A stretch of DNA of 43,473 bases from Steroidobacteraceae bacterium. GTDB lineage: Bacteria > Pseudomonadota > Gammaproteobacteria > Steroidobacterales > Steroidobacteraceae. Shown one piece after another: positions 2-37,788 of the stretch (positions within the stretch are counted from its first letter, which is position 1; each line of letters starts with the position of its first letter). Location: assembly GCA_027456085.1 (NCBI GenBank), contig DAIDVO010000067.1:1-43473 (forward strand), read 5' to 3'. The notes under the pieces are model-generated. The model did not search any database. It was not told the origin of the DNA and worked only from the letters and a program-made list of their open reading frames with translations. The position numbers and the translations under genes were made by a program.

Positions 2-1111
2 CATCTGGACGCGGCCGACACGACCTACCGGGTCGCCGACACCTGCGCCGATGATCACTGCTTCTGGCTGTATTCGTCCGGCTCGACCGGGCCGCCGAAG
101 GGAACCGTGCACGCGCATTCGAGCTTGATTCAGACGGCCGAACTGTACGCGCGGCCGACCCTCGGGATCAATCAGGCGGATGTCTGCTTTTCAGCCGCGA
201 AACTGTACTTTGCCTACGGCCTCGGCAACGCGCTGACGTTCCCGCTAGCGGTCGGCGCCACGACGATTCTGATGGCAGAACGTCCCACGCCGGCGGCCGT
301 TTTCGCGCGCTTCAACCGACACCGCCCGACGGTATTCGGGGGCGTGCCGACGCTCTACGCGGCGATGCTCGCGAGCGCCGACCTGCCGTCCCGCGGCGCG
401 GATCACCTGCGTTGCTGCACGTCGGCCGGCGAGCCGCTGCCGGAGGAAATCGGCAAGCGCTGGCGCAGGCATTTCGGCGTCGACATACTGGACGGAATCG
501 GCTCGACGGAAATGCTGCACATCTTCTTGTCCAATAGTCTCGGCGACGTCCGCTACGGCACGACCGGCAAGCCGGTGCCGGGCTATGAGGTGCGGATAGT
601 CGATGAGGCCGGCCGCAGGGTGCCGGTGGGCGAACAGGGCGAATTGCAGATCCGCGGACCCACCGGTGCGGCAATGTACTGGAACGACCGCGAACGCTCC
701 CGCAGAACTTTCATCGGATCCTGGACGCGCAGCGGAGATAAATTCGTCGAAACGCCCGACGGCTATTTCATCTATGCGGGACGCGGCGACGACATGTTAA
801 AGGTCGGCGGAATTTATGTGTCGCCCGCCGAGGTCGAGTCCGCATTGATCTCGCACGAGGCCGTGCTCGAGGCCGCGGTCGTCGCCCGCGAAGATCGCGA
901 CGGCCTGATCAAGCCGATGGCCTACGTCGTCGTCAAGACGGGCGTGGAGCGCTGCGAGACTCTGTGCGTCGCACTTAAGTCGCACGTCAAATCGATGCTG
1001 GCGCCGTACAAGTATCCGCGCTGGATCGAATTTCTCGACGAGCTGCCGAAGACCGCGACCGGCAAGATTCAGCGCTACAAGCTGCGAGCCGAGGCGAATG
1101 CGAAACGATGA
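2..1111 (+). CDS. Benzoate-CoA ligase family / AMP-forming acyl-CoA synthetase, 5'-truncated by the window edge
   Basis: Reading frame open from base 2; AMP-binding P-loop 'YSSGSTGPPKGTVH', 'DGIGSTEMLHIFLSN' and C-terminal 'ELPKTATGKIQRYKLR' typical of the benzoate-CoA ligase family. Confidence 0.88.
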   Translation, partial: HLDAADTTYRVADTCADDHCFWLYSSGSTGPPKGTVHAHSSLIQTAELYARPTLGINQADVCFSAAKLYFAYGLGNALTFPLAVGATTILMAERPTPAAVFARFNRHRPTVFGGVPTLYAAMLASADLPSRGADHLRCCTSAGEPLPEEIGKRWRRHFGVDILDGIGSTEMLHIFLSNSLGDVRYGTTGKPVPGYEVRIVDEAGRRVPVGEQGELQIRGPTGAAMYWNDRERSRRTFIGSWTRSGDKFVETPDGYFIYAGRGDDMLKVGGIYVSPAEVESALISHEAVLEAAVVAREDRDGLIKPMAYVVVKTGVERCETLCVALKSHVKSMLAPYKYPRWIEFLDELPKTATGKIQRYKLRAEANAKR

Positions 1112-1934
1112 GTCGCGCCGCGGCGTGCGGACGTGCGTCGATGGCGCCGTTGCGCCGCAAGGCGCACCGCTTCGGCATGTCGCCGCGGGCGGCCATCGCC
1201 TGGAGTTTCAGCTCATCGCGGCGCCGTCCACCGCGGCGTCGACGATCGTGTTCCTGCACGAAGGACTCGGCTCGATCTCGCTCTGGAAGGACTTTCCGCG
1301 CCGCCTCGCCGCGGCCTGCGGCTGCGGCGCTCTCGTGTATTCCCGCTACGGCTACGGCGCATCCGAACCGCTCGGCGAGCCCAGGTCCGTCGAGTACATG
1401 CACCGCGAAGGGTTAGATACGCTGCCCGAGTTGCTCGAGCGTCTGTCGATCGCGAACCCGATTCTCTTCGGCCACAGCGATGGCGCCTCGATCGCGCTGA
1501 TCTACGCGGCCTCCCAGCTGCGCGCGCCGCGCGCCATGGTCCTCTGTGCACCCCATGTGTTCGTCGAGGACGTGACGATCCACGCAATTCGAGCAGCCAA
1601 GATCGCTTACGAAACCACGGGCTTTCGCACCCGCCTCGCCCGCCACCATGCCGACGTCGAGCGCACTTTTCGGGGCTGGAACGACATCTGGCTGGACCCT
1701 GCATTCCGCGCCTGGAATATCGAGGACTGCCTTGCGAAGGTCGCCTGTCCGATCCTCGCGGTGCAGGGCTACGACGACGAATGCGGGACAATGGCGCAGG
1801 TCGATCGCATCGCGGCACAATCCAAGGAAATCACACTTCTCAAATTGCACGCGTGCGCGCATTCGCCGCATCGCGATCAGCCCGAAGCCGTGATCCAAGC
1901 GACGCAGCGATTCCTCGCTCGGGTGACCGCGTAA
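1098..1934 (+). CDS. Alpha/beta hydrolase
   Basis: 278 aa; 'VFLHEGLGSISLWKDFP', nucleophile elbow 'GHSDGAS', C-terminal 'HACAHSPHRDQPEAV'; overlaps the upstream ligase ORF by 14 nt. Confidence 0.85.
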   Translation: MRNDESRRGVRTCVDGAVAPQGAPLRHVAAGGHRLEFQLIAAPSTAASTIVFLHEGLGSISLWKDFPRRLAAACGCGALVYSRYGYGASEPLGEPRSVEYMHREGLDTLPELLERLSIANPILFGHSDGASIALIYAASQLRAPRAMVLCAPHVFVEDVTIHAIRAAKIAYETTGFRTRLARHHADVERTFRGWNDIWLDPAFRAWNIEDCLAKVACPILAVQGYDDECGTMAQVDRIAAQSKEITLLKLHACAHSPHRDQPEAVIQATQRFLARVTA

Positions 1935-12290: not shown

Positions 12291-13559
12291 TCAGACCCCG
12301 CAGGCCGCTGTGTAATGATGTAGAAGCCGCCGGATCGAATGCAGGATCATTGCGCGAGGGCGCTTTTCGAGTTCGCCGGCGCGCACCGCCTCGTACTGCG
12401 CAGGCAGGTACTGACTCACCAGCGTCATCGGTATGTCTATGCGTTCGAGCGCCCGCATCAATTCATCGGTCGTGCGTAGCACGGACGGCGCATTCCAGTA
12501 ATAGCGGATGCGGTCACTCAAACTGTACTGCAAGTCGAGAGTCTCCCGGTTCGGATCTGCATAATATGCGCGCCAATGACGAGGATCCGCGCGCATGACG
12601 TTCAGTACCGATTGCTTCAGTGGCGGCTCCGGCGGAAGGGACAATTCTCGCGCAATATCGGAAAGCGCCCAGAGCGCCTCTCGCAGCGCGAACGTCAATG
12701 CGGGCCCGACTTTGAGGATCGCAAAATGATCTCTAACGAGGCGACGCAGAGCCGCCGGCGTCTGATAATCGGTCGAGTGTGCCTCGTACACCAGGGCTTG
12801 CTCGCGCTCGATCCGGACCGATAACGCGCGCGCCCTCTCCGGCATGTAGTCGACGACCTTGTAATGATCGAACTCCACGCCCGGTTGAACGACGAGCGCC
12901 ACGACCCGCGGCCAGACGCTGTCCAATCCGCGCACCGCGAACGCCGCGCGGTGTGCATCGAGTGTTTCGTCGACGGCGGCCGGAGTCGTGACTTGCAGCG
13001 CACCGAGCGCCTCTGTCGCACCACCGGGGGTCGGCACTTCGGTCCCGATCACGTAGACGGGTGCTGCGCCGCCGGCGACGCCCCATGCGCGCTCCGCGGC
13101 CAGGCACAAATCCGCCGCGCGGTTCGCGATGACCTGCGTGGATAACACCGCGGGATCGTCGGCGCAGGACATCGAGCAATCCAGGTGCAACTTGCGAAAG
13201 CCAGCCGCGACGTATTCGTCCACCAGGACCGCGGAGCGCGCCATCGCGTCGGCGGTACCCAGGCCGCGCCAACAAGTCGGGCCAAGATGATCGCCCCCCA
13301 ACAGTATCCGCTCGGGCGAAATACCGGCGCGTTCCGCAAGGTCGTCCAAGAAGCGTCGGAACAGCGCGGGCGTCATGCCGGTGTAGCCGCCGAATTGATT
13401 GACTTGGTTGGCGGTGGCCTCGATCAAAGCATGCGCGCCATTTGGCCCGGCAACCTGCAACGCGGCTTCCAGCACCAGAGGATGCGACGAGCAAACCGAC
13501 GGGATGCCGACACACGCCCCCGCCTTGTGCTCGCGCAACAATGTTTGCAGCGCATTCAT
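12291..13559 (-). CDS. D-tagatose-bisphosphate aldolase non-catalytic subunit family (GatZ/KbaZ/AgaZ)
   Basis: 'GIPSVCSSHPLVLEAAL', 'ATANQVNQFGGYTGMTPALFRRFL', 'LGGDHLGPTCWRG', 'HLDCSMSCADDP', 'GTEVPTPGGATEAL'. Confidence 0.93.
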   Translation of the reverse strand: MNALQTLLREHKAGACVGIPSVCSSHPLVLEAALQVAGPNGAHALIEATANQVNQFGGYTGMTPALFRRFLDDLAERAGISPERILLGGDHLGPTCWRGLGTADAMARSAVLVDEYVAAGFRKLHLDCSMSCADDPAVLSTQVIANRAADLCLAAERAWGVAGGAAPVYVIGTEVPTPGGATEALGALQVTTPAAVDETLDAHRAAFAVRGLDSVWPRVVALVVQPGVEFDHYKVVDYMPERARALSVRIEREQALVYEAHSTDYQTPAALRRLVRDHFAILKVGPALTFALREALWALSDIARELSLPPEPPLKQSVLNVMRADPRHWRAYYADPNRETLDLQYSLSDRIRYYWNAPSVLRTTDELMRALERIDIPMTLVSQYLPAQYEAVRAGELEKRPRAMILHSIRRLLHHYTAACGV

Positions 13560-13586
13560 TGTGATTTCGGCTGTTTCGGCAATGGC

Positions 13587-14456
13587 TCACCCGGGTTGCA
13601 GCGACAGCAGCAACGCACCGGCGCGCGCAAGCACGGCGCCGACGAGCTTGAGGGCGCCGGGCAGCGTTCCGGATACCGTCAACGCGATCGCGGTAGTCAA
13701 AAACGGAGCGCCCGCGTTGACGAGTGGCGACACGACGATTGCCTTGCCGTACCGGAATGAATAGACGAGCAGCAATGCGCCGACCGCGTTCAACGTCTGC
13801 ACGCCGGCGGCCAACCAGGGCCCCGAGAGTCCGAGATAAATCGGGTGGGAGAAATCGGTCAGCCAGAAGGCCACCGGAATGAACATCAAGCCGGTGACCA
13901 TCATGTAAAAAAAGATGCTCTCCGCGCTCATTGTCGCGTTGGCAAGCTTGATGTAGTACGCCTGCAGGCCCCAGGCCAGCGTCACTCCGAGCGCGAGGTA
14001 GAACCACGCGCCATAGTGTTGCGCACCACCTTCGGCCGAGTAGTCGAACAGAGGCAGCGAAACCACCGCGAGCACAATCCCGGTCACGCCGAGCCGTCCG
14101 GTCCGCTCCCCGAGCAGCACCAACGACAACAGGATCGTCACCACCGGCGAGAGCGAGACGATCGGGAAGATGAGATAAGTCGGCCCGACCGTGACCGCAT
14201 GGAACAGCAGCATTTGCCCGCCCGCGCCGAGGAGGCCAACCGCCATGCCAAGTGCGATGGAGCGCCGGTCCTTGTTGAGCGGCGTGGCGGCGCGCCGCAT
14301 CACCCAGATGGCCGGGGCGATCATCGTCAACGCACACACCACGTACGTAAGCGTGTCCGGAAAGCCATGTTCGCTCGGGACGCCCGTAAACGCGCCCCAG
14401 ACGCCCCAGGCGAGCGTGGTGAGCAGCGCGTAACGCAACCAGTTCGATGCGGTCAT
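13587..14456 (-). CDS. EamA-family (DMT) transporter
   Basis: About 10 hydrophobic helices, EamA-type repeats ('LLTTLAWGVWGAFTG', 'TLAWGLQAYYIKLANA'); lies between TonB receptor and gatZ-like gene in the same orientation. Confidence 0.85.
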   Translation of the reverse strand: MTASNWLRYALLTTLAWGVWGAFTGVPSEHGFPDTLTYVVCALTMIAPAIWVMRRAATPLNKDRRSIALGMAVGLLGAGGQMLLFHAVTVGPTYLIFPIVSLSPVVTILLSLVLLGERTGRLGVTGIVLAVVSLPLFDYSAEGGAQHYGAWFYLALGVTLAWGLQAYYIKLANATMSAESIFFYMMVTGLMFIPVAFWLTDFSHPIYLGLSGPWLAAGVQTLNAVGALLLVYSFRYGKAIVVSPLVNAGAPFLTTAIALTVSGTLPGALKLVGAVLARAGALLLSLQPG

Positions 14457-26671: not shown

Positions 26672-27643
26672 GTGGCTACCGCTCGAAACAACACAGGGCG
26701 CATCGATTTGAACGCTCTCTTGATGTTTCACGCCATTGCGTCCACCGGCAGCCTCACCCGGGCGGCCGCCCGACTAGATGTATCGAAAGCGACGCTGAGC
26801 CGCCGACTTCGGGAGCTTGAGCGCGAGGTCAATGCGCTATTAGTGACGCGGGGGCATCGACGGCTGGAGTTGACCGAGGCCGGGGCCGTTCTCTTCGCAG
26901 ACTCGCAGACCCTTGCTGCCGAGGCCCAGGCCGTAGCCGATCGCGTGCGTACGCTTCGCACGGAATTCGATGGGGCTCTGCGCGTCGCCGTACCTACGGG
27001 GTTCATGGCGACGGTGTGTGACAAAGCCGTGCTTCGGTTCGCGGCGCGCCACCCGCGTGTTCGTTTGCACGTAACTCAGGCGGACCGTCCGATTGATGTT
27101 ACCCAGGAACCCTTCGACGTCGCGGTGCACATCGGTGCCGTGCCCAACCGCGACGTCCCGATGCGCCTGCTCGCGCGCGTCCGTCGCGGCGCCTATGCGA
27201 GCCCGGCTTACCTCAAAGGAAGGCCGACTCCGGTTGCTGTGGCGGATCTTGCAGCCAATGCCTGTATTGCCCTGTCATCGCAGATTTCCGCGGGGGTCTG
27301 GTCGATCATTGAGCCATCCGGCCGGCGTAGCGTCCGCCGTTCGCTGCGCGCGATCGTGTCGGATGTCCATCTCGCCCGGGAGATGGCGCGTGCGGGGCTT
27401 GGAATCGCCGCGCTCCCGGAGGCCTTGTGTCGCGAGGACGTCGAATCCGGCAGGCTGGTACGCGTGTTGACGGAATGGCGGATCCCCGTAGCCGAGGTGT
27501 TTGCAACCTACGCTGATCGGCACTACATGCCGAGTAAGATCCGCACTTTTCTCGATTTCCTGAGGACCGAGTTCGACGACTTGATCGCCGATGGGCGCGG
27601 CAAGAAGCGGCCTCTGCGCACCGTTGCGAAACTGAAACCGTAG
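26672..27643 (+). CDS. LysR-family transcriptional regulator (GTG start)
   Basis: 'LNALLMFHAIASTGSLTRAAARLDVSKATLSRRLRELEREVNALLVTRGHRRLELTEAG', substrate-binding domain. Confidence 0.93.
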   Translation: MATARNNTGRIDLNALLMFHAIASTGSLTRAAARLDVSKATLSRRLRELEREVNALLVTRGHRRLELTEAGAVLFADSQTLAAEAQAVADRVRTLRTEFDGALRVAVPTGFMATVCDKAVLRFAARHPRVRLHVTQADRPIDVTQEPFDVAVHIGAVPNRDVPMRLLARVRRGAYASPAYLKGRPTPVAVADLAANACIALSSQISAGVWSIIEPSGRRSVRRSLRAIVSDVHLAREMARAGLGIAALPEALCREDVESGRLVRVLTEWRIPVAEVFATYADRHYMPSKIRTFLDFLRTEFDDLIADGRGKKRPLRTVAKLKP

Positions 27644-27805: not shown

Positions 27806-29164
27806 GTGCTCGGAGACAATGCCAACAAGCCGACGATTCCCGCCAATGGCCCCGAAGACAAGCAACGTGCCCGCCTCGCCGGCTGGCAGGCGCTCGATGG
27901 GAAACAGTTCGAGGGCCCGGCCGTCGCCGAACTCTACAGGCAGCGGGCGACGCGGTTTGTGGACATCGTACAACTGAGACAGCCGGACCGCGTACCGTCG
28001 CTGCTGTTGTCATCAGGGATTGTGCCCCGGTACGCCGGGATTTCATTCGCAGACACGTTCTACGATGCCGAGAAGAGCGCCGCGGCTACACGGAAATTCA
28101 TAGAGGAATTTCGGCCCGAATACACGTTGATGGGCGGAGGCGCATCCGGCAGAGCCTACGATCTTCTGGGCTACAACGCCTACAAGCGGCCCGGCAGCAG
28201 CCTGCCGGACGACGTGCCGTTTCAGTATGTCGAAGGCGAATACATGCCCGCCGAGGACTACGCCGCGCTGATCAACAATCCCGAAGGCTACATGCTGCGC
28301 AATTATCTCCCGCGGGTGTGCGACAACCTGCAGGGACTGCGCCTGCTTCCCAGCCTGTTCTCGACCGTGGAGATGATCGGCCTCAGCGCCTGGCTCGCCG
28401 GCCTGTCGGCACCACCATTGCTGGAGGCGCTGAGACGGCTCGGCGAGGCCGCCGAACACGTCGGCAAGAACCACGCGGTCTGGATGAAGACGAGCGCCCA
28501 GATCCTCGGCCGTCATGGCTGCCCCGGCCTGGTGGGCGGCGTCGCCAAGGCACCGTTCGACATCGTCGCGGATACGCTTCGCGGTACGCGCGGCGCACTG
28601 ATGGATCTTTACCGGCGTCCGGACAAGCTGCTCGCCGCCAGCGAAGCACTGATTCCCACCTCGATTCACATGGGCGTCGGGGCAGGTGAGCCCGGTCCGC
28701 CACCGTTTGTGTTCATGCCGTTGCACAAAGGCGCGTCCGCGTTCATGTCGTTCAAGCACTTCCAGAAGTTCTACTGGCCATCCTTCGAGCGCCAACTGGA
28801 AGGCATCATCGCCGCGGGCATGGTGCCATTTTCCTTCGTCGAGGGTGGCTTTGACGAAGCACGGCTCGAGTTCATTGCGGCGTCGGGACTGCCGGCCGGC
28901 CGGACCATCTGGCTGTTCGACCGCACCGACCTGCGCCTGGTAAAGAAACACTTTAGCGGCTTCGCCTGCTTCGGCGGAAACGTGCCGGCCTCGCTGTTCT
29001 CGGCCGGCACCGTCGCGCAGATGGAGGATTACTGTAAACACCTGATTGATGACGTCGCGCCCGGCGGCGGCTTCTTCCTCTCGCCCGGCGCGACCGTGGA
29101 TGATGCGAATCCGGCTGTCGTGCGGGCGTATATGGCCTGCGCCGAGAAATACGGGGTTTATTGA
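27806..29164 (+). CDS. Uroporphyrinogen decarboxylase-family corrinoid methyltransferase (MtaA/CmuA/O-demethylase MT-I-like)
   Basis: URO-D-fold family sequence ('RVPSLLLSSGIVPRYAGISFADTFYD', 'PFVFMPLHKGASAFMSFKHFQKFYWPSFERQLEGIIAAGMVPFSFVEG'). In-frame GTG at 27806 proposed; ORF track begins at 27701. Genomic context supports a corrinoid role. Confidence 0.82.
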   Translation: MLGDNANKPTIPANGPEDKQRARLAGWQALDGKQFEGPAVAELYRQRATRFVDIVQLRQPDRVPSLLLSSGIVPRYAGISFADTFYDAEKSAAATRKFIEEFRPEYTLMGGGASGRAYDLLGYNAYKRPGSSLPDDVPFQYVEGEYMPAEDYAALINNPEGYMLRNYLPRVCDNLQGLRLLPSLFSTVEMIGLSAWLAGLSAPPLLEALRRLGEAAEHVGKNHAVWMKTSAQILGRHGCPGLVGGVAKAPFDIVADTLRGTRGALMDLYRRPDKLLAASEALIPTSIHMGVGAGEPGPPPFVFMPLHKGASAFMSFKHFQKFYWPSFERQLEGIIAAGMVPFSFVEGGFDEARLEFIAASGLPAGRTIWLFDRTDLRLVKKHFSGFACFGGNVPASLFSAGTVAQMEDYCKHLIDDVAPGGGFFLSPGATVDDANPAVVRAYMACAEKYGVY

Positions 29165-29245
29165 CGGGAGACGGCGCATGCAAACCCGATGTACGAACAG
29201 CGTTGCAAAGCGGGACCACGTCGAGTCCACAGGAGGACACCAGCA

Positions 29246-30709
29246 ATGGAACAGGCCGCGTTAGTGAATGCCATCGGTTCAGGACGGGTCAGTCATGATC
29301 CGGCGGAACTGGAGAGTTATTCGAGCGACGTCAGTTTCGCCAACCGCGTGCGCCCCGCATCGCTCGTAAAGCCGAGAACCACGGACGAGGTTCACCGAAT
29401 CCTGAAATTTGCCAACGAGACCAAGACGCCTCTGGTACCGGTCAGTTCGGGCGCACCGCACTTCCGCGGAGATACCGTTCCCAGTGTGGGCGGCGCGCTC
29501 ATCGTCGATATGAGCGGCATGAAGAAGATTCTGATGGTGGACCGTGACAGACGCGTAGCCATGTGCGAGCCGGGAGTCACCTTCGGCGAACTGATTCCGG
29601 CGGCGCAAAAGGCAGGGCTTCGGCTCAACATGCCGCTTCTGCCGCGGGCATCCAAGTCGGTGATCGGCAGCATTCTCGAGCGAGAGCCCGTCGTCATGCC
29701 CAAATACCAATGGGATATTTCCGACCCGCTGGCGTGTGCCGAAATCATTTTTGGAACCGGTGATGAGTTCAGAACCGGACAGGCCGCGGGTCCCGGTACC
29801 GTCGCGGAGCAAAGAGCGGTGGGAGGCGTGCAAAAGGCGCCCTACGGACCCGGCACGGCTTCGTTGCACCGCCTGATCCAGGGGGCTCAAGGAACGCTGG
29901 GTATCGTCACTTGGGTGTCGATGCGATGCGAAATATTGCCGAGTCTGGAAGAGCCCTTCGTCGTTGGCTCCTGCGATCTGGACCAGCTGCTCGAATTGAC
30001 CCATTGGCTGATTCGACAGCGAATGGTCAACGAGTGCTTCATCCTCAATAATGCGAATCTCGCGACCATCTTCGCGAATCCGGCGGCCGCCGACTACCGG
30101 AGCCTCAAAGCGGCGCTGCCTACCTGGACCCTGTTCTACACGGTGGCCGGCGGCGAATATTTCCCGGAGGAACGGGTCGGCTCCCAAATCAAGGACATCA
30201 CCGAGATCGCGCAGCGATTGGGTATCGAGGCGGTCAGGACAGTCGGCGGGATTTCCGCCAATGAAATCATGAAAACGGTACAGCAGCCTTGCGCAAATCC
30301 CTACTGGAAGCTTCGCCCCAGGGGCGCCTCCCAGGACATTTTCTTCATGACCATCCGGGAGAAACTCGAAGGTCAGATCGCCGGCATGGCTGCGCAGGCG
30401 GATCGAAGTGGCTACGCCGCCGCCGACGTCGGCGTGTACATCCAGCCGGCCGTGCAGGGCACGAGCTTTCACTGCGAGTTCAATCTGTTTTATGACCCCG
30501 GCAACGCCAAGGAACGCAATCGAGTCCGCGAGCTGACCAGTTCGGCCACCAAGAGCTTGCTAGCCGGGGGTGCGTTCTTCTCGAGGCCATATGGGGACGA
30601 TGCAAGGATGATTCTGAACCGCGATGCGGCCTCCGTGGAGGTCTTGCACACGTTCAAGAAGATCTTTGATCCGAACAACGTGATGAATCCGGGGAAAGTC
30701 TGTTTTTGA
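29246..30709 (+). CDS. FAD-binding oxidoreductase (FAD_binding_4; GlcD/VAO-like)
   Basis: ATG at 29246 preceded by AGGAGG; 'LVKPRTTDEVHRILKFANETKTPLVPVSSGAPHFRGDTVP...LIVDMSGMKKILMVDRDRRVAMCEPGVTFGEL', C-terminal 'FKKIFDPNNVMNPGKVCF'. Confidence 0.9.
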   Translation: MEQAALVNAIGSGRVSHDPAELESYSSDVSFANRVRPASLVKPRTTDEVHRILKFANETKTPLVPVSSGAPHFRGDTVPSVGGALIVDMSGMKKILMVDRDRRVAMCEPGVTFGELIPAAQKAGLRLNMPLLPRASKSVIGSILEREPVVMPKYQWDISDPLACAEIIFGTGDEFRTGQAAGPGTVAEQRAVGGVQKAPYGPGTASLHRLIQGAQGTLGIVTWVSMRCEILPSLEEPFVVGSCDLDQLLELTHWLIRQRMVNECFILNNANLATIFANPAAADYRSLKAALPTWTLFYTVAGGEYFPEERVGSQIKDITEIAQRLGIEAVRTVGGISANEIMKTVQQPCANPYWKLRPRGASQDIFFMTIREKLEGQIAGMAAQADRSGYAAADVGVYIQPAVQGTSFHCEFNLFYDPGNAKERNRVRELTSSATKSLLAGGAFFSRPYGDDARMILNRDAASVEVLHTFKKIFDPNNVMNPGKVCF

Positions 30710-30762
30710 CGCAAGCGGGAATACAGCGACGATCGGCGAACGGACAGCAGGAGACAGCCGCA

Positions 30763-32031
30763 ATGGGATTGGAACAGTACAAGGGCGATATGGACATGTG
30801 TTGCCGCTGCTCGACCTGCAAATTCGTACCCATGCAGCAGGTGAGCGGATTCCAGTACGCCAACGTGTGCCCCAGCATATCCAAATATGACTTTCACAGT
30901 TACTCCGGCGGCGGCCGGCTGAACATCGGCGCATCGATGCTGAAGAACGGGTTCAATTACACGCACAAGCTGCTGGACATCGTCTACAACTGCCAGATGT
31001 GCGGGGCCTGCGGCGTTTCGTGCAATTACGCCATGGACATGGAAGTCATGGCGCCGATCACCGAATTCCGGATCAAGTGTGTCAAGGACGGCAAGACACA
31101 TCCTGCCCTGGACAAGATCATCGCCGGTCTGCGCAAGAACGATTCGATGGTGCCCGTGACCGGCAAGCGCGGTGACTGGGCTGCCGGACTCAACCTGAAG
31201 GACGCCACCAAGGAAAAAGTGGACGTGCTCTATTACGTCGGATGCCTTACGAGCTACGACAAGAAGCTGCAGAAGCTGGCCAGGTCCACCGCGAAAATAC
31301 TGCAGAAGGCAGGGGTCGATTTCGGCATCGCCGGCGATGCGGAGACCAGCAGCGGCGGAGCGGCCTATGAGATGGGGTACGAGCAAGATGCCCTCGACCA
31401 GGCCAAGAAGACCATGGCCCTGATCAAGCAGACCGGAGTCAAGACGGTCGTTGCCTCCGGGGCCGAGGACTACCAGGCCATCAAGGTTCTATATGACAAG
31501 TTCAAGCTGAAGGGCGACCTGAAGGTGCTGCATATTGCGCAGTACATTCCGCAACTGATCAAGGAAGGCAAGCTCGAGCCGAAGAAGAACCTCGAACTCG
31601 CGGTGACGTACCACGATCCGTGCCACTTGGGCAGGCTGGGCGAACCATGGGTCCACTGGGAAGGCAAGAAGGTGCCGGGAGATCGCTTTGTGTTTGATCC
31701 GCCCAAGGTGTACCGGCGCGGAACACACGGCATCTATCAGCAGCCGCGGGACGTGCTGAAGAGCATTCCGGGAGTCAAGCTCACCGAAATGCCGCGGAAC
31801 AAGGAATATGCCTGGTGCTGCGGCGCCGGCGGCGGAGTGTGTGATTCCAATCCGGAATTCGCCCAATGGACGGCTAAGGAAAGAATCGAGGAGGCCGAAT
31901 CCACCGGTGCCGAAGCGCTGGTCACCGCTTGCCCCAAGTGTGAGAAGACGTTCAGCGCGGCGATCGAGGCCAATGGCAGCCGCCTGAAGGTCTACGACAT
32001 TGTGGAACTCGTCGAACAGGCGATCGAATAA
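30763..32031 (+). CDS. (Fe-S)-binding CCG-domain oxidoreductase subunit (GlcF/HdrD-like)
   Basis: [4Fe-4S] motif 'CQMCGACGVSC'; C-terminal CCG domain 'DPCHLGR...WCCGAGGGV...ACPKCE'; N-terminal CCG domain degenerate. Confidence 0.9.
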   Translation: MGLEQYKGDMDMCCRCSTCKFVPMQQVSGFQYANVCPSISKYDFHSYSGGGRLNIGASMLKNGFNYTHKLLDIVYNCQMCGACGVSCNYAMDMEVMAPITEFRIKCVKDGKTHPALDKIIAGLRKNDSMVPVTGKRGDWAAGLNLKDATKEKVDVLYYVGCLTSYDKKLQKLARSTAKILQKAGVDFGIAGDAETSSGGAAYEMGYEQDALDQAKKTMALIKQTGVKTVVASGAEDYQAIKVLYDKFKLKGDLKVLHIAQYIPQLIKEGKLEPKKNLELAVTYHDPCHLGRLGEPWVHWEGKKVPGDRFVFDPPKVYRRGTHGIYQQPRDVLKSIPGVKLTEMPRNKEYAWCCGAGGGVCDSNPEFAQWTAKERIEEAESTGAEALVTACPKCEKTFSAAIEANGSRLKVYDIVELVEQAIE

Positions 32032-33518
32032 TGGGACCACGAATCATGACGCTGAGCAAAGAAGTCTATGCGGAATTCGAAGATGTAGTCGGTCCGGAAT
32101 TCATCTGTAATGACCCGGCGATCATGCCCTCGTATTACGCCACCGAGTTCGCGGCAGTCATCCTGCCGGAGAACACGGCGCAGGTTCAGGCAATCGTCAA
32201 GCTGTGCAACAAGCACAAGGTGTCATTCCGACCGGTGTGCACCGGCTGGACGGGAAAGTTTCAAGCGGGCGTTGTCCTTTTGGATTTGAGAAGGATGAAC
32301 CGCATCATCGAGATCAACGAGAAGAACATGTACGCGGTGGTCGAGCCGTATGTGATCACGGCGCAGCTGCAGGCCGAGTTGATGAAGCGAGGCCTGCATC
32401 TGAACGTCAAGGGCGCCGGCACCAATTGCTCGGCGATGCTGCGCGGCCACGGACATCTGGATCAATCCACTGGCGGCGACGATCGCAATCATCTGGCCAT
32501 CGAGTGGGTCACGCCTGCCGGGAACATCGTCCGATCCGGCTCCTTGGGGTCTTCGGATGAATGGTTCTGCGGGGATGGCCCGGGGCCCTCGCTGCGGAGC
32601 ATCCTCACGAGTGCGACGCCTCCGGGTGTGACGCCTGGCGTATTTACGCGGGCCGCCATGAAGATCTATCACTGGCCCGGTCCGACGAAGTTCCCCATCG
32701 TCGGCAATTCGCCAAATTACGCCCTAAGCGAAATTCCGGCGAATTTCATGACCCGCTATTACAGTTTTCCGACCATGGAAAAGATGTGGCAGGCCGAGCT
32801 CAAGATCGGAGAGAGTGAAATCTCGTTCGAGCTCATGGGCTTCAACGTGGCCATGGTGGCGGCGAACATCACGACCAGCAATGAAGAAGAGGAAGCGGCT
32901 TTCAAGCGGCTCAGCAAAGAGGTGCAAGGTCCGGGCTTCCTGATCATCCTGGCCGGCAATTCCGCGGCCGACTTCGAATACAAGAAGCGCGTGCTGAATC
33001 ACATCGTCAATGCCGCGGGCGGCAAGTCCCTCGCTTCGCTGGAAGATCCCCGGACGGAGGGGATTCTGATGTGCCAGTGCATCCGAATTTCCGCCTCTAT
33101 CCGGGAAACCTTCCGCCCGGGCGGCGCTTTCAGTTCCATCCCCGTGATGGGGCAAAGAGACCTGACGATCAAGTGGGCGATCGGGGCCGGAAAGGCAAAG
33201 GAGCCGTTGATCGAAAAGGGTTTGATCGTGGATGACGGCGGCGCCTCCTTTGGATGGGGCGTCGAACAGGGACATCTCGGCAAGACGGAAATATTCTGCA
33301 AGTTTGATCCCCAGAACGCGGTCGCCAAGCAGGCGGTGCAGGCCTGGCACGACGAGCAGAGTGCCCGGGCCTTCAAGGAACGCTATTTCGCGTTACTATC
33401 GCCGGGCCAGCCCGAGGAAATCGGCAAAGCGCTGTCGAACTACCACGTCTGGTGGAACAAGCTCCAAAAGGAGCTCGATCCCAATCGCGTATCACCGGAG
33501 GGCGGCGCACTGGTCTAG
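32031..33518 (+). CDS. Second FAD-binding oxidoreductase (FAD_binding_4 family)
   Basis: 'VILPENTAQVQAIVKLCNKHKVSFRPVCTGWTG...VVLLDLRRMNRIIEINEKNMYAVVEPYVITAQLQAEL'; start overlaps the upstream stop (TAATG). Confidence 0.88.
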   Translation: MGPRIMTLSKEVYAEFEDVVGPEFICNDPAIMPSYYATEFAAVILPENTAQVQAIVKLCNKHKVSFRPVCTGWTGKFQAGVVLLDLRRMNRIIEINEKNMYAVVEPYVITAQLQAELMKRGLHLNVKGAGTNCSAMLRGHGHLDQSTGGDDRNHLAIEWVTPAGNIVRSGSLGSSDEWFCGDGPGPSLRSILTSATPPGVTPGVFTRAAMKIYHWPGPTKFPIVGNSPNYALSEIPANFMTRYYSFPTMEKMWQAELKIGESEISFELMGFNVAMVAANITTSNEEEEAAFKRLSKEVQGPGFLIILAGNSAADFEYKKRVLNHIVNAAGGKSLASLEDPRTEGILMCQCIRISASIRETFRPGGAFSSIPVMGQRDLTIKWAIGAGKAKEPLIEKGLIVDDGGASFGWGVEQGHLGKTEIFCKFDPQNAVAKQAVQAWHDEQSARAFKERYFALLSPGQPEEIGKALSNYHVWWNKLQKELDPNRVSPEGGALV

Positions 33519-33615
33519 TCCGCGCATATCACCGCCCGGCCGGCCATCCCAAGAATCGCTGCGGTTGCCGGGCCGGATTGAGTCTTGGTGCAACCGCGAT
33601 AAGGAGTGCATTTCG

Positions 33616-34308
33616 GTGACTGACATGACAGAGCAAGAACAACAGCTCGTCTCGTGGCTCGCGGACATGCGTGAAGACGACGCCGTCCCCCTCGCCACGG
33701 CGATGCTGCTTGAACAGCGTGTGGATCCGCTACACGTCCTCAATCTATGCCGCGCGGCGATGGAAATCGTCAGCAAGCGCTTCGAGCAAGGCGAATATTT
33801 CCTGCCCGAACTCGTACTTTCCGGCGAGATGCTTGACCGGATTGGCGCCATCGCCAAGCCGCTCATCAAGGATCTTCCCCAAGACGCCGCCCGCAAGGCC
33901 GGCAAAGTACTCATAGGCACGGTCCACGGCGACCTGCACGACATAGGCAAGAACATCGTTACCTTCATGCTGGATATCAACGGCTTCGAGGTGAAGGACA
34001 TCGGCATCGATGTTCCAGTCAAGGTATTCATCGACGAGATCAATGCCTACCAGCCCAATGTCGTCGGCCTGTCCGGATTCCTGACGCTGGCGTTTGAATC
34101 AATGAAGGAAACCATCGAGGCGATCGCTCAAGCCGGCTTGCGCGAAAAGCTCCGCATAATGATCGGCGGCGGCCAGATTGATGAGACGATCCGCGCTTAC
34201 ACGGGGGCGGACGCGTTCGGCAGTAATGCCGTCGAGGCGGTCGCCCTGTGCACCAAATGGTGCGCGGCAGCCGCTCCAAAACTCGGATACGCGCCGGCCG
34301 GCAAGTAG
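33616..34308 (+). CDS. Corrinoid (B12-binding) methyltransferase protein
   Basis: Cobalamin motif 'GTVHGDLHDIGKNIVTFMLDINGFEVKDIGIDVPVKVFID' and 'VVGLSGFLTLAFESMKETIEAI', with N-terminal B12-binding cap helices. Start GTG 33616 or ATG 33625; ORF-track start 33232 lies inside the upstream gene. Confidence 0.95.
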   Translation: MTDMTEQEQQLVSWLADMREDDAVPLATAMLLEQRVDPLHVLNLCRAAMEIVSKRFEQGEYFLPELVLSGEMLDRIGAIAKPLIKDLPQDAARKAGKVLIGTVHGDLHDIGKNIVTFMLDINGFEVKDIGIDVPVKVFIDEINAYQPNVVGLSGFLTLAFESMKETIEAIAQAGLREKLRIMIGGGQIDETIRAYTGADAFGSNAVEAVALCTKWCAAAAPKLGYAPAGK

Positions 34309-34350
34309 TCATGGCCGGGACTCCCCGGCAGTCGCGCGTAGGTTAACGTC

Positions 34351-35055
34351 GTGTACCGAATATCCAGCCGTCCGCTATTGTGCGCGGTCTCCTCGGCCGT
34401 GCCGGAACAGGTCATGAGCGGCGCTCATCTGCGGCTTCGTGCGCAGGCATTGAGGCTGCTTGAAGCCGAATCGATGCTCGACGCCCGCTACGCTTTTCGC
34501 TTCGTGACGATCGATGGCGTCCGTGACGATCTGCTCATCCTGGCCGGTGAAAGCCTTGAAGCTCCGTGGCTCATTCCGAAGAGCGGCCGGCTCACAGCCG
34601 TTGCTTGCTGCGTAGCCACGCTGGGAGAGGGTCTGGAGGATCGCGTACGCACGCTTTTCACCGCGCGACGCGCGGCGCTTGCACTCGTCTTGGATTCGAT
34701 TGGCAATGAGATCCTAATGGTACTGGCGCGGCGGGCGCAGGATCATATGCGGGCCGCGGCAACCGGCCGCGGTCTGTCCATGGCGGGCGAGCTGCGTTCC
34801 GGTGACCCTGGTCTGGCTCTCGATACGCAGCGCAGGATCCTGGCGCTCGCCGCCGCCGACGAATTGGGCATTACCCTGAGTAGCGGCTGCGTGATGCGGC
34901 CACTCAAGTCGACGAGCATGGTGCTCGGTGCCGGCATTGCGTTGCGCGAAGTTGGCTGGTCGCGCTGTGATCCCTGTCCGTCGCGACCACGGTGCCGCGT
35001 CGCCACCGGCGCGCGCATGAACAGTGCATCACCGCCGCCGCGAACCCAACCGTGA
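34351..35055 (+). CDS. Stand-alone vitamin B12-dependent methionine synthase activation-domain-like protein
   Basis: GTG start; 'VACCVATLGEGLEDRVRTLF...ALVLDSIGNEILMVLARRAQDHM' and 'SGCVMRPLKSTSMVLGAGIALREVGWSRCDPCPSRPRC', lying between the corrinoid protein and RACo genes. Confidence 0.75.
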   Translation: MYRISSRPLLCAVSSAVPEQVMSGAHLRLRAQALRLLEAESMLDARYAFRFVTIDGVRDDLLILAGESLEAPWLIPKSGRLTAVACCVATLGEGLEDRVRTLFTARRAALALVLDSIGNEILMVLARRAQDHMRAAATGRGLSMAGELRSGDPGLALDTQRRILALAAADELGITLSSGCVMRPLKSTSMVLGAGIALREVGWSRCDPCPSRPRCRVATGARMNSASPPPRTQP

Positions 35056-35066
35056 TACCGGCTGAA

Positions 35067-36899
35067 ATGAAGAACGTTCAATCGTACACGCTGCACTTTC
35101 CGCAGCTTGACCGCGATATTGCGGTGCGCGATGGCGAAACCATTCTGCAGTGCGCGCGCCGCGCGGGCGTGCGTATCGTCGGCGCCTGCGGCGGTCGTGG
35201 AACCTGCGGCTCCTGCATGGTCGCCGTGATCGAAGGCCGCGTGCGCAGCTCGACCCGCAAGAGCGCCACCGACTCCGGTACGGCGGAAGGACACCACACC
35301 GTCCGCGCCTGCCAGTCCAGTCCCGTGACGGACTGCGTCATCATGATATCAGCGCGCGCGCTCGCCCCTGTTGTGCGTACGGAAGTCGCCGCGGCCGACG
35401 ACTCGCTGTATTTGCCGCTGGACAGCGCCATCGTTCGACGGTGCATTACCGTGCCCGCGCCGACCCTTGAAGATCCCCGCGCCGATGCGGAACGCCTGGT
35501 CCGGGCCCTTCCGGGCGGCCCAAAGCCCACCATCGATATCACCGCGGCTCGTTCCTTGCCAATACGCCTGCGCGCCGACGGCGGCGTACTGTCGGTCGTC
35601 ATGCGCCGCAACGAGATCATCTCCTGCACGACGCAAGCCGCGGGCACGCTGGGTTTGGCCGTCGATTTGGGTACGACCAACACAGCCGGATTCTTGGTCA
35701 ATCTTCATGATGGGGCTCATATCGCCACTCTCGGCATCGAGAACCCGCAAGTTGCTTGGGGCGCCGATCTCATCAGCCGGATCAGCTACGCGCTGCGCAG
35801 CCCAAGCGGCGCCGAGGAATTGCGTCAAGCGGCGGTGACCGGAATCAACGCCATGATCCACGATTTATGCGCTGCCGTCGGAGCGCGGCCGGCTGAGATC
35901 GTCGACGTGACGATCTGCGGAAATACAGCCATGCAGTCCCTATTCGCAGGGCTGCCGGTCGACTATCTGGGCAAAGCCCCATTTGTCGCCGTGCTTCGTG
36001 ACGCCTGCGAGATACGCGCCCGCGATCTGGGTCTCGACGTATGTCCCGGCGCGTACGTCTATGTCGCGCCGAATGTTGCCGGGTGCGTCGGCGGCGACCA
36101 CGTCGCCGCACTTTTGGCAACGGAAGCTCGCTGGGCGGACGGCCGCGCCAGCCTTGTCATGGATATCGGGACCAACACCGAAATATCCGTGATTCATGCC
36201 GGCCGGATCCACACCGCATCCGCGCCCTCGGGTCCGGCCCTCGAGGGGGGCCACATTTCCTGCGGAATGCGCGCAGCGAACGGCGCCATCGAGCATGTAC
36301 GGCTTGGCGCATATGGCCTGGAGTTGGAGGTGATCGGCAACGCGGCGCCCGTAGGAGTTTGCGGATCCGGTGTTGTGGACGCGCTCGCAAGTTTGTATCG
36401 GGCGCACGTAATCGACGCACGTGGGCGAATCGGTCGCACGCATCCTGCCGCGACGCAACTCAACGGCAGGCGCTCCGCGATCCTGGCTCCCGGGGTCGAA
36501 TTTACGCAGGACGACATCCGCGCGGTACAGCTGGCGAAGTCGGCCATCCGAACCGCCACGGACGTTCTCCTGGAGCGCGCCGGACTACGCGCCGAAGATC
36601 TTGTGCGCTTCATCATTGCCGGCGCGTTCGGCGCCTACATCGATGTGCCCAGCGCGATCACGATCGGACTACTGCCGAACCTGCCGACGGATCGCTTTCA
36701 GCAGGTCGGCAACGCCGCCGGCGCCGGCATTCGACGCCTGCTCACATCGCAAGCCGCGCGCGAACGCGCAGGCGCTCTTGCGCAGCAATGTGAGTACGTC
36801 GAGCTCAGCTGCGTCAAGACGTTTCAGAAAGCATTTCTATCAAACATCGGATTTCCCGCCGACCCTTGTTTCCCGCCTACCCTTGCCACAGGAGCTTAG
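35067..36899 (+). CDS. RACo-like ASKHA-domain corrinoid activation protein (2Fe-2S ferredoxin plus DUF4445)
   Basis: [2Fe-2S] 'GACGGRGTCGSCMVAV', 'GLAVDLGTTNTAGFLVNL', 'ASLVMDIGTNTEISV', 'FIIAGAFGAYIDVPSAITIGLLPNLP'. Confidence 0.93.
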   Translation: MKNVQSYTLHFPQLDRDIAVRDGETILQCARRAGVRIVGACGGRGTCGSCMVAVIEGRVRSSTRKSATDSGTAEGHHTVRACQSSPVTDCVIMISARALAPVVRTEVAAADDSLYLPLDSAIVRRCITVPAPTLEDPRADAERLVRALPGGPKPTIDITAARSLPIRLRADGGVLSVVMRRNEIISCTTQAAGTLGLAVDLGTTNTAGFLVNLHDGAHIATLGIENPQVAWGADLISRISYALRSPSGAEELRQAAVTGINAMIHDLCAAVGARPAEIVDVTICGNTAMQSLFAGLPVDYLGKAPFVAVLRDACEIRARDLGLDVCPGAYVYVAPNVAGCVGGDHVAALLATEARWADGRASLVMDIGTNTEISVIHAGRIHTASAPSGPALEGGHISCGMRAANGAIEHVRLGAYGLELEVIGNAAPVGVCGSGVVDALASLYRAHVIDARGRIGRTHPAATQLNGRRSAILAPGVEFTQDDIRAVQLAKSAIRTATDVLLERAGLRAEDLVRFIIAGAFGAYIDVPSAITIGLLPNLPTDRFQQVGNAAGAGIRRLLTSQAARERAGALAQQCEYVELSCVKTFQKAFLSNIGFPADPCFPPTLATGA

Positions 36900-36900
36900 C

Positions 36901-37788
36901 GTGACACTGCCCGACAGCTTTCCTATCGAGATCATCGGCGAACGCATCAGCCCGGGCTACAAGAGCACCAAGGCGCTGCTGGACGCCGATGACTTGTCCG
37001 GCCTGCAGGCATTGGCCGTCAGGCAAGTCCAAGCGGGCGCGTCATACCTCGACGTGCACCTAGGCACCCGCGGACTGCGCGACCTGCCGTTCGTGACAGC
37101 GCTCGTGCGTGCGCTTCAAGCTGTCGTCGATGTGCCGCTGTGTTTCGATTTCCCCGAAATCCCGGTCCTCGAAACCGCGTTCGCCGCTTACGATCCCGGC
37201 AAAGCCGGGGGAGCGCCCGCCATTCTGAACTCCTTGACCGACCAACGCTGGGAACTGATGGAATTGTACGAACGGAATCGCTTTCGCGTCATTGTGATGG
37301 CCTCCGAGCGGGTGGTCGACGGCACTGCGCGCAGCAACCTGACGGCACCGGAAATCGCCGACACGGCTCGGAGTGTGGCTCTACGCCTGAACCGCGAATA
37401 CGGAATCGCAATCCCCGACATATTCATCGATGTCGCCGTGCGCGCGGTCATCGTGGACACGAAGGGACTCAATCGCGCTGTGCTCGACGCAGTGCGGCTT
37501 ATCCGCAATGACTCCACGATCGAGGGCATTCACATCATGGGGGCATTGACCAATATTGGTCAGCAGCTGCCGGCAAAAGCAGCCGACGGCTCGCACCTCA
37601 AACAAGCGCTCGAAAATGCATTTCTGACGATCGCAGTGCCAAATGGCATGGATACAGTAATGGGAACGCCGTGGAGCGGTTACAAGCCGCTACCGGAAGA
37701 CAATTACGTGCTCAAGGTGTACCGAGATTTCCTCGAGCAGTCCGGGAGCGCAGCGCTGCGAGCGGTTCGTAGGTTTTACCATACGTAA
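36901..37788 (+). CDS. Methyltetrahydrofolate:corrinoid methyltransferase (DHPS-fold, MeTr/MtgA-like)
   Basis: GTG at 36901 one nt after the RACo stop; 'IEIIGERISPGYKSTKALLDADD', 'QVQAGASYLDVHLG', 'DIFIDVAVRAVIVDTKG', 'IMGALTNIGQQLP'. Confidence 0.88.
   Translation: MTLPDSFPIEIIGERISPGYKSTKALLDADDLSGLQALAVRQVQAGASYLDVHLGTRGLRDLPFVTALVRALQAVVDVPLCFDFPEIPVLETAFAAYDPGKAGGAPAILNSLTDQRWELMELYERNRFRVIVMASERVVDGTARSNLTAPEIADTARSVALRLNREYGIAIPDIFIDVAVRAVIVDTKGLNRAVLDAVRLIRNDSTIEGIHIMGALTNIGQQLPAKAADGSHLKQALENAFLTIAVPNGMDTVMGTPWSGYKPLPEDNYVLKVYRDFLEQSGSAALRAVRRFYHT

Follow-up and report, generated by a model that had tools for sequence, protein, structure and literature searches.

A putative corrinoid-dependent demethylase operon with an embedded flavoprotein-iron-sulfur triad in a Steroidobacteraceae genome

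Gene content and the predicted methyl-transfer machinery

In the genome of a Steroidobacteraceae bacterium, we describe an eight-gene operon that probably encodes a demethylase acting on a methylated compound, most likely a methoxylated phenolic, coupled to a separate dehydrogenase of the substrate or product. The window, i.e. the whole stretch of 43,473 nucleotides analyzed, is contig 67 of a 2.46-Mb genome that is 81% complete. A preliminary description had placed eight codirectional genes at positions 27806-37788, and eight open reading frames (ORFs) are indeed present there on the plus strand, with intergenic gaps of ~1-100 bases. They comprise, in order, a methyltransferase (MT-I), a triad of two flavoproteins and an iron-sulfur protein (FAD1-CCG-FAD2), a corrinoid protein (CorP), gene 6, a reductive activase (RACo) and a second methyltransferase (MT-II, or MT2). 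Searches of Pfam, with matches counted when over the curated cut-off, and of NCBIfam as a second library backed seven of these genes as previously named. The exception was gene 6, earlier called 'MetH-activation-like', for which neither Pfam, searched up to E=10, nor NCBIfam gave a match, Met_synt_B12 included.

The first gene (27806-29164) belongs to the UroD superfamily (Pfam URO-D, 31.4 bits) and would encode the substrate:corrinoid methyltransferase. Its sole convincing relative in the PDB is CdmB of Acetobacterium dehalogenans (1e-24), and a profile of the MT-I family built from 23 relatives matched CdmB at 3e-66 and HemE at only 4e-6, with no match to MtaA up to E=1. As a separate, true HemE is encoded elsewhere in the genome (457.7 bits) and the profile favors CdmB, we rule out that MT-I is HemE, in agreement with the preliminary description; the two proteins also lie far apart in the tree. 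MT-I is best described as a UroD-superfamily corrinoid methyltransferase of the CdmB/O-demethylase kind, with predicted methyl transfer to Co(I). CdmB itself acts on haloalkanes as a corrinoid-dependent MT-I, whereas MtvB, OdmB and VdmB, which are closely related to it, and MtoB, its nearest relative, are O-demethylases (PMC13222342). The window operon has in common with the CdmBCA chloromethane system and these O-demethylases a UroD-superfamily MT-I, a corrinoid protein, a tetrahydrofolate-dependent MT-II and an activator, but its MT-I is only a distant relative and it alone has the embedded triad. In the MT-I family, an invariant glutamate within an FVEGG motif may occupy the place of the HxC zinc ligands, whose position in this family is assigned only tentatively; a His-Cys-Cys zinc site marks S-methyltransferases (PMC10418091). 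Tandem arrays of ~6-7 UroD-type MT-I paralogues were seen in Dehalococcoidia contigs (L133, 8685-17933; G383:C75; G378:C13; G620:C43), one of which adjoins a corrinoid protein gene.

The remaining methyl-transfer roles are assigned to genes downstream of the triad. The MtbC/MtgC/MtaC-like corrinoid protein (33616-34308) has the B12-binding fold (B12-binding, 73.1 bits; B12-binding_2, 46.1 bits; also matched in NCBIfam) and retains, as the earlier reading required, the histidine of the DxHxxG motif (DLHDIG). RACo (35067-36899), a putative ATP-dependent corrinoid reductive activase, contains an N-terminal 2Fe-2S domain with its cysteine motif (Fer2, 45.6 bits) as well as the middle and C-terminal ASKHA domains (Raco_middle, 161.2 bits; RACo_C_ter, 244.8 bits), and is AcsV-like in NCBIfam. 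MT-II (36901-37788), of the DHPS/pterin-binding fold, is a probable methylcorrinoid:tetrahydrofolate methyltransferase (Pterin_bind, 35.4 bits against a cut-off of 25.5), its match to the narrower PRK07535 (100 bits) falling below that family's cut-off. Thus, all four methyl-transfer roles are encoded in the operon as judged by Pfam. The host genome further holds a partial MTHFR match (83.5 bits).

Related genes without a nearby triad occur closer to the host. A five-gene cassette, CorP-UroD-gene6-RACo-MT2, is present in three of 98 host relatives (L006, L007, L008), and the window's partner genes are closest to it (56-73% identity for CorP, 39-53% for RACo, 43-58% for MT2 and 30-48% for gene 6). 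It is this likeness that identifies gene 6 (34351-35055) as a conserved cassette protein; a positional counterpart in a Chloroflexi locus gave a sub-threshold Met_synt_B12 match (E 0.001). Leaving the triad aside, cassette and operon comprise the same genes, the last three of them in matching order, but the cassette MT-I is only 32-33% identical to that of the window and falls in another clade. Near the triad-less cassette of L008, from the host's family, lies a MobR-like, phenol-type sigma-54 regulator (12296-14068).

The triad and its association with MT-I

FAD1 (29246-30709) and FAD2 (32046-33518), subunits 1 and 3 of the triad, both match FAD_binding_4 (61.8 and 69.3 bits for the two flavoproteins) and enclose subunit 2, a CCG/HdrD-like iron-sulfur protein (30763-32031; Pfam CCG, 94 bits). 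The best PDB profile matches of FAD1 are vanillyl-alcohol dehydrogenase, eugenol oxidase and PCMH, and both flavoproteins score better against phenol-oxidizing VAO/PCMH enzymes than against glycolate oxidase (4e-28 versus 2e-13 for FAD1; 2e-21 versus 5e-14 for FAD2). Their PCMH-type FAD-binding domain makes both members of the VAO/PCMH superfamily, with the fold checked for FAD2 only: its AlphaFold model (predicted local distance difference test score, pLDDT, of 75) has the VAO superfamily fold and does not tell the branches apart, and the model of FAD1 (pLDDT 63.6) was too poor for use. The flavoproteins appear to stand outside any named family. Since their profiles lie near VAO/PCMH, yet neither has the HxGDxNxH motif of hydroxyacid dehydrogenases or a Tyr-Arg phenolate pair at the expected C-terminal place (itself derived from a weak alignment), the triad would constitute an undescribed subfamily. 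Both the complete methyl-transfer system and the undescribed variant put forward in the preliminary description are supported at the level of sequence.

In the triad iron-sulfur protein, a pair of 4Fe-4S motifs is accompanied by a pair of CCG motifs, and the C-terminal CCG motif is intact in nearly all homologs. The N-terminal CCG motif is degenerate (SS or ST in place of CC, and the next ligand gone) in the window and in four loci titled Proteobacteria (L040, L041, L042, L046), three of these having also lost its first cysteine, whereas nearly all other triad iron-sulfur proteins keep these ligands. In subunit make-up, two FAD_binding_4 proteins plus one CCG protein, the triad resembles the glycolate oxidase GlcD-GlcE-GlcF. 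We reject membership in GlcDEF, given that curated NCBIfam cut-offs were unmet (GlcD, 63.8 against 567.9; GlcF, 24.9 against 333) and HxGDxNxH is absent. PCMH, eugenol oxidase and vanillyl-alcohol oxidase/dehydrogenase belong to the same superfamily and provide the top PDB profile matches of both flavoproteins, but the triad pairs two paralogous flavoproteins with a CCG iron-sulfur protein rather than with the cytochrome c or O2 of the 4-phenol oxidases. We found no description of the triad together with a demethylase in open-access papers.

To follow the triad across genomes, FAD2 was scanned against single genomes representing 85,462 species, yielding 42 loci at 45-85% identity, all titled as metagenome-assembled genomes (MAGs). 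FAD1, CCG and FAD2 are consecutive and in the same order in 31 of them, which span at least six phyla; five further loci reach the contig end before FAD1, two (L064, L078) are partial, and four (L071, L073-L075) contain FAD2 without FAD1 and CCG. Compared with the window, 26 other FAD1 proteins are 57-73% identical, the CCG proteins 57-81% and the FAD2 proteins 47-85%. Conservation beyond chance is indicated by the 57-85% identity of triad proteins to those at loci of other phyla, and we regard the triad as a conserved, undescribed three-gene module on these sequence comparisons. Near Dehalococcoidia triads (L065, L070, L080, L056, L069 and others), a small protein of ~160 amino acids with cupin-like HxHDxDE motifs and no Pfam match recurs.

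Genomes with the triad usually also encode MT-I. Across phyla, 21 of the 22 triad genomes do so, and the median copy number is 7-8. Within one Chloroflexota order, MT-I was present in all 23 genomes with the triad iron-sulfur protein and in 17 of 133 without it (p=5e-17, kinship making the genomes dependent on one another). In the host's class, none of 273 other genomes had MT-I at E<1e-50, and no full-length FAD2 relative was among the matches listed for them. The association is one-sided, i.e. MT-I often occurs without the triad, and the triad rarely without MT-I. It also extends to position, as MT-I was found within 2 kb of the triad three times against 0.4 expected (p=0.009), and near it in further related lineages (L065-L067, L070). 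In a sample of 148 Dehalococcoidia genomes, four had FAD2 homologs and six had MT-I (both at E<1e-60), with one genome in common; because the three FAD2 genomes without MT-I had a distant FAD2 (37-40%), we claim the association for the triad proper only.

Gene trees and gene order point to a composite origin. An alphaproteobacterial MAG locus (L040) is the sister of the window's MT-I, FAD1, CCG and FAD2 (support 100/100, 98/97, 99/96 and 95/87), its MT-I lying on the opposite strand relative to the window arrangement. The recurrence of one sister in four trees indicates a single history for MT-I and the triad. Because that sister is L040 and the partner genes resemble the host-order cassette, the operon looks like two joined modules, one of MT-I with the triad and the other a methyl-transfer cassette of the kind seen in the host's order. 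A Chloroflexi contig (L055) again encodes the eight roles, in the order FAD1-CCG-FAD2-CorP-UroD-gene6-RACo-MT2 and with a CoA ligase next; its gene 6 connects to that of the window only via L080. Together with the 21 triad genomes noted above, this locus bears out the earlier expectation that the triad is conserved alongside methyltransferase genes.

Homologous triads, annotated only by domain, also stand alone on plasmids of a cultured organism, Agrobacterium vitis/Allorhizobium ampelinum (L147, L149, L150). Their three genes are arranged as in the window (37, 36 and 29% identity), and the A. vitis iron-sulfur protein has an N-terminal CCG loss of the same kind as the window. In contrast to the window, the plasmid triad has an MFS transporter and a porin next to it, and a search of the plasmids, not of the strains' chromosomes, found no close UroD-type MT-I. 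Also in the vicinity are genes for a P450-ferredoxin-reductase set, a CoA ligase and a carboxylase/HMG-CoA-lyase set.

Proposed function and competing explanations

In the reading we favor, MT-I would transfer the methyl group from the substrate to the corrinoid protein in its Co(I) state, MT-II would pass it on to tetrahydrofolate, and RACo would rescue Co(II) with ATP. The triad would act as a separate VAO-superfamily dehydrogenase that oxidizes the same substrate or the demethylated product, its electrons reaching an acceptor at the quinone level by way of the 4Fe-4S and non-cubane clusters. The sequences establish the gene content, the homologies, the conservation of the triad and its nesting among genomes with MT-I, and the common inheritance of MT-I and triad; demethylation as such, the substrate class, the substrate of the triad, the direction of methyl flow and the electron acceptor are what we infer here. 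O-demethylation is favored because MT-I groups with CdmB, whose close relatives are O-demethylases. A quaternary amine, considered earlier besides methoxyaromatics, is an unlikely substrate, since known MT-Is for quaternary amines are MttB-type rather than UroD-type.

Gene neighborhoods elsewhere also bear on the substrate. L070 is flanked by MetF, MetV and a FlpD-domain protein, L040 by a GMC oxidoreductase, an aldehyde dehydrogenase and an MTHFR-type gene, and in L073-L075 a unit recurs in which a UroD-type MT-I and a FAD2-like flavoprotein accompany an aldehyde ferredoxin oxidoreductase and a thiamine-diphosphate enzyme resembling benzoylformate decarboxylase. Along with the L008 regulator, these neighbors hint at aromatic catabolism and prove no substrate. 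Methyl groups on lignin-type aromatics form a large carbon pool, and their anaerobic removers beyond acetogens and methanogens are poorly known. UroD-type corrinoid methyl transfer is of a known kind; what would be new is its coupling to an undescribed, widely conserved flavin-iron-sulfur dehydrogenase. Nested in genomes with UroD-type demethylases, the triad would point to an additional, oxidative half of these pathways in uncultured Chloroflexota, Acidobacteria and Proteobacteria, for which it offers a clear gene target. Going further, MT-I and the triad may tentatively be seen as one undescribed 'oxidize-and-demethylate' unit, in which the flavoproteins would turn a methoxylated (lignin-like) compound into a form open to attack by Co(I), or draw the reaction forward by oxidizing the freed phenol. 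If so, those uncultured Dehalococcoidia and Acidobacteria that possess numerous MT-I paralogues would use the unit to dismantle many methoxylated compounds without oxygen.

Several observations speak against a methoxyphenol demethylase with a coupled dehydrogenase. The missing Tyr-Arg pair means that the triad need not act on phenols, and a structure search with FAD2 placed D-lactate dehydrogenase level with the phenol oxidases. The A. ampelinum genes near the triad suggest other catabolism, and for most triad loci the fetched flanks contain no MT-I. This lack of a nearby MT-I also lends some weight to the view that the triad is an unrelated catabolic dehydrogenase, sharing a habitat and gene pool with MT-I and placed in the operon by accident, as do its solitary occurrence on the A. 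vitis plasmids and the tendency of the two modules to be abundant in the same genomes. We consider this unlikely in light of the same sister in four gene trees despite the differing MT-I orientation, the excess of MT-I within 2 kb of the triad and in the further lineages, and the recurrence of all eight roles in L055. The preliminary description had left the triad two roles, oxidation of the substrate or product, which we favor, and the supply of low-potential electrons that would, with RACo, bring the corrinoid protein from Co(II) to Co(I). The position of the triad between MT-I and the corrinoid protein and the kinship of CCG proteins with the electron carriers HdrB/HdrD agree with the latter role, which is nevertheless hard to credit: RACo has a 2Fe-2S domain of its own, and VAO-type flavins are not known to attain the potential needed for Co(II) reduction. 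Moreover, RACo cassettes without a nearby triad in three host-order genomes and plasmid triads without close MT-I argue for a self-standing catabolic dehydrogenase and disfavor Co(II) reactivation, against which the 17 genomes of one order with MT-I and no triad iron-sulfur protein speak as well.

The nature of the methyl donor and the direction of transfer were weighed likewise. Haloalkanes could be substrates of MT-I, as they are of CdmB, its only solved close relative (PMC13222342). That MT-I demethylates a halomethane or other small methyl donor, not a methoxylated aromatic, is still improbable, as the closest relatives of CdmB itself are O-demethylases, a CoA ligase, a phenol-type regulator and a thiamine-diphosphate enzyme among the neighbors at other loci suggest the breakdown of organic acids or aromatics, and chloromethane needs no two-flavoprotein dehydrogenase. 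Finally, the system might run in reverse and methylate its substrate to prime breakdown, a reaction for which cobalamin-dependent methylation of estrogen is established in denitrifying Denitratisoma (PMC7448270). This we hold to be very improbable: the operon contains a dedicated pterin-binding MT-II and no S-adenosylmethionine-cycle genes, and EmtABCD-type estrogen methylation is rejected, EmtA being MtmB-like (PMC7448270) and the window MT-I UroD-type.

Genomic setting

The operon is absent from all 22 congeners examined, and both of its flanks match congeners at 65-85%, which makes a mis-binned contig unlikely. Directly upstream lies a LysR-family gene (26672-27643, plus strand; an ORF with LysR-type NCBIfam matches below cut-off), which we infer to be a possible regulator of the operon. 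Promoter and terminator scans of the operon gave a signal no greater than in shuffled sequence, and repeats sought at its edges yielded none that were convincing. Some 26 kb from the operon, window positions 107-1934 hold a truncated gene of the benzoate-CoA ligase family (TIGR02262, 558 bits against a cut-off of 375) and an alpha/beta hydrolase, which suggests a candidate aromatic-acid route. Between 10145 and 22064, inspection by eye revealed an apparent sugar-amine/galactoside utilization cluster, comprising a kinase, a SIS-domain isomerase, a tagatose-bisphosphate-aldolase-like protein, a TonB receptor, a DeoR regulator and a glycoside hydrolase.

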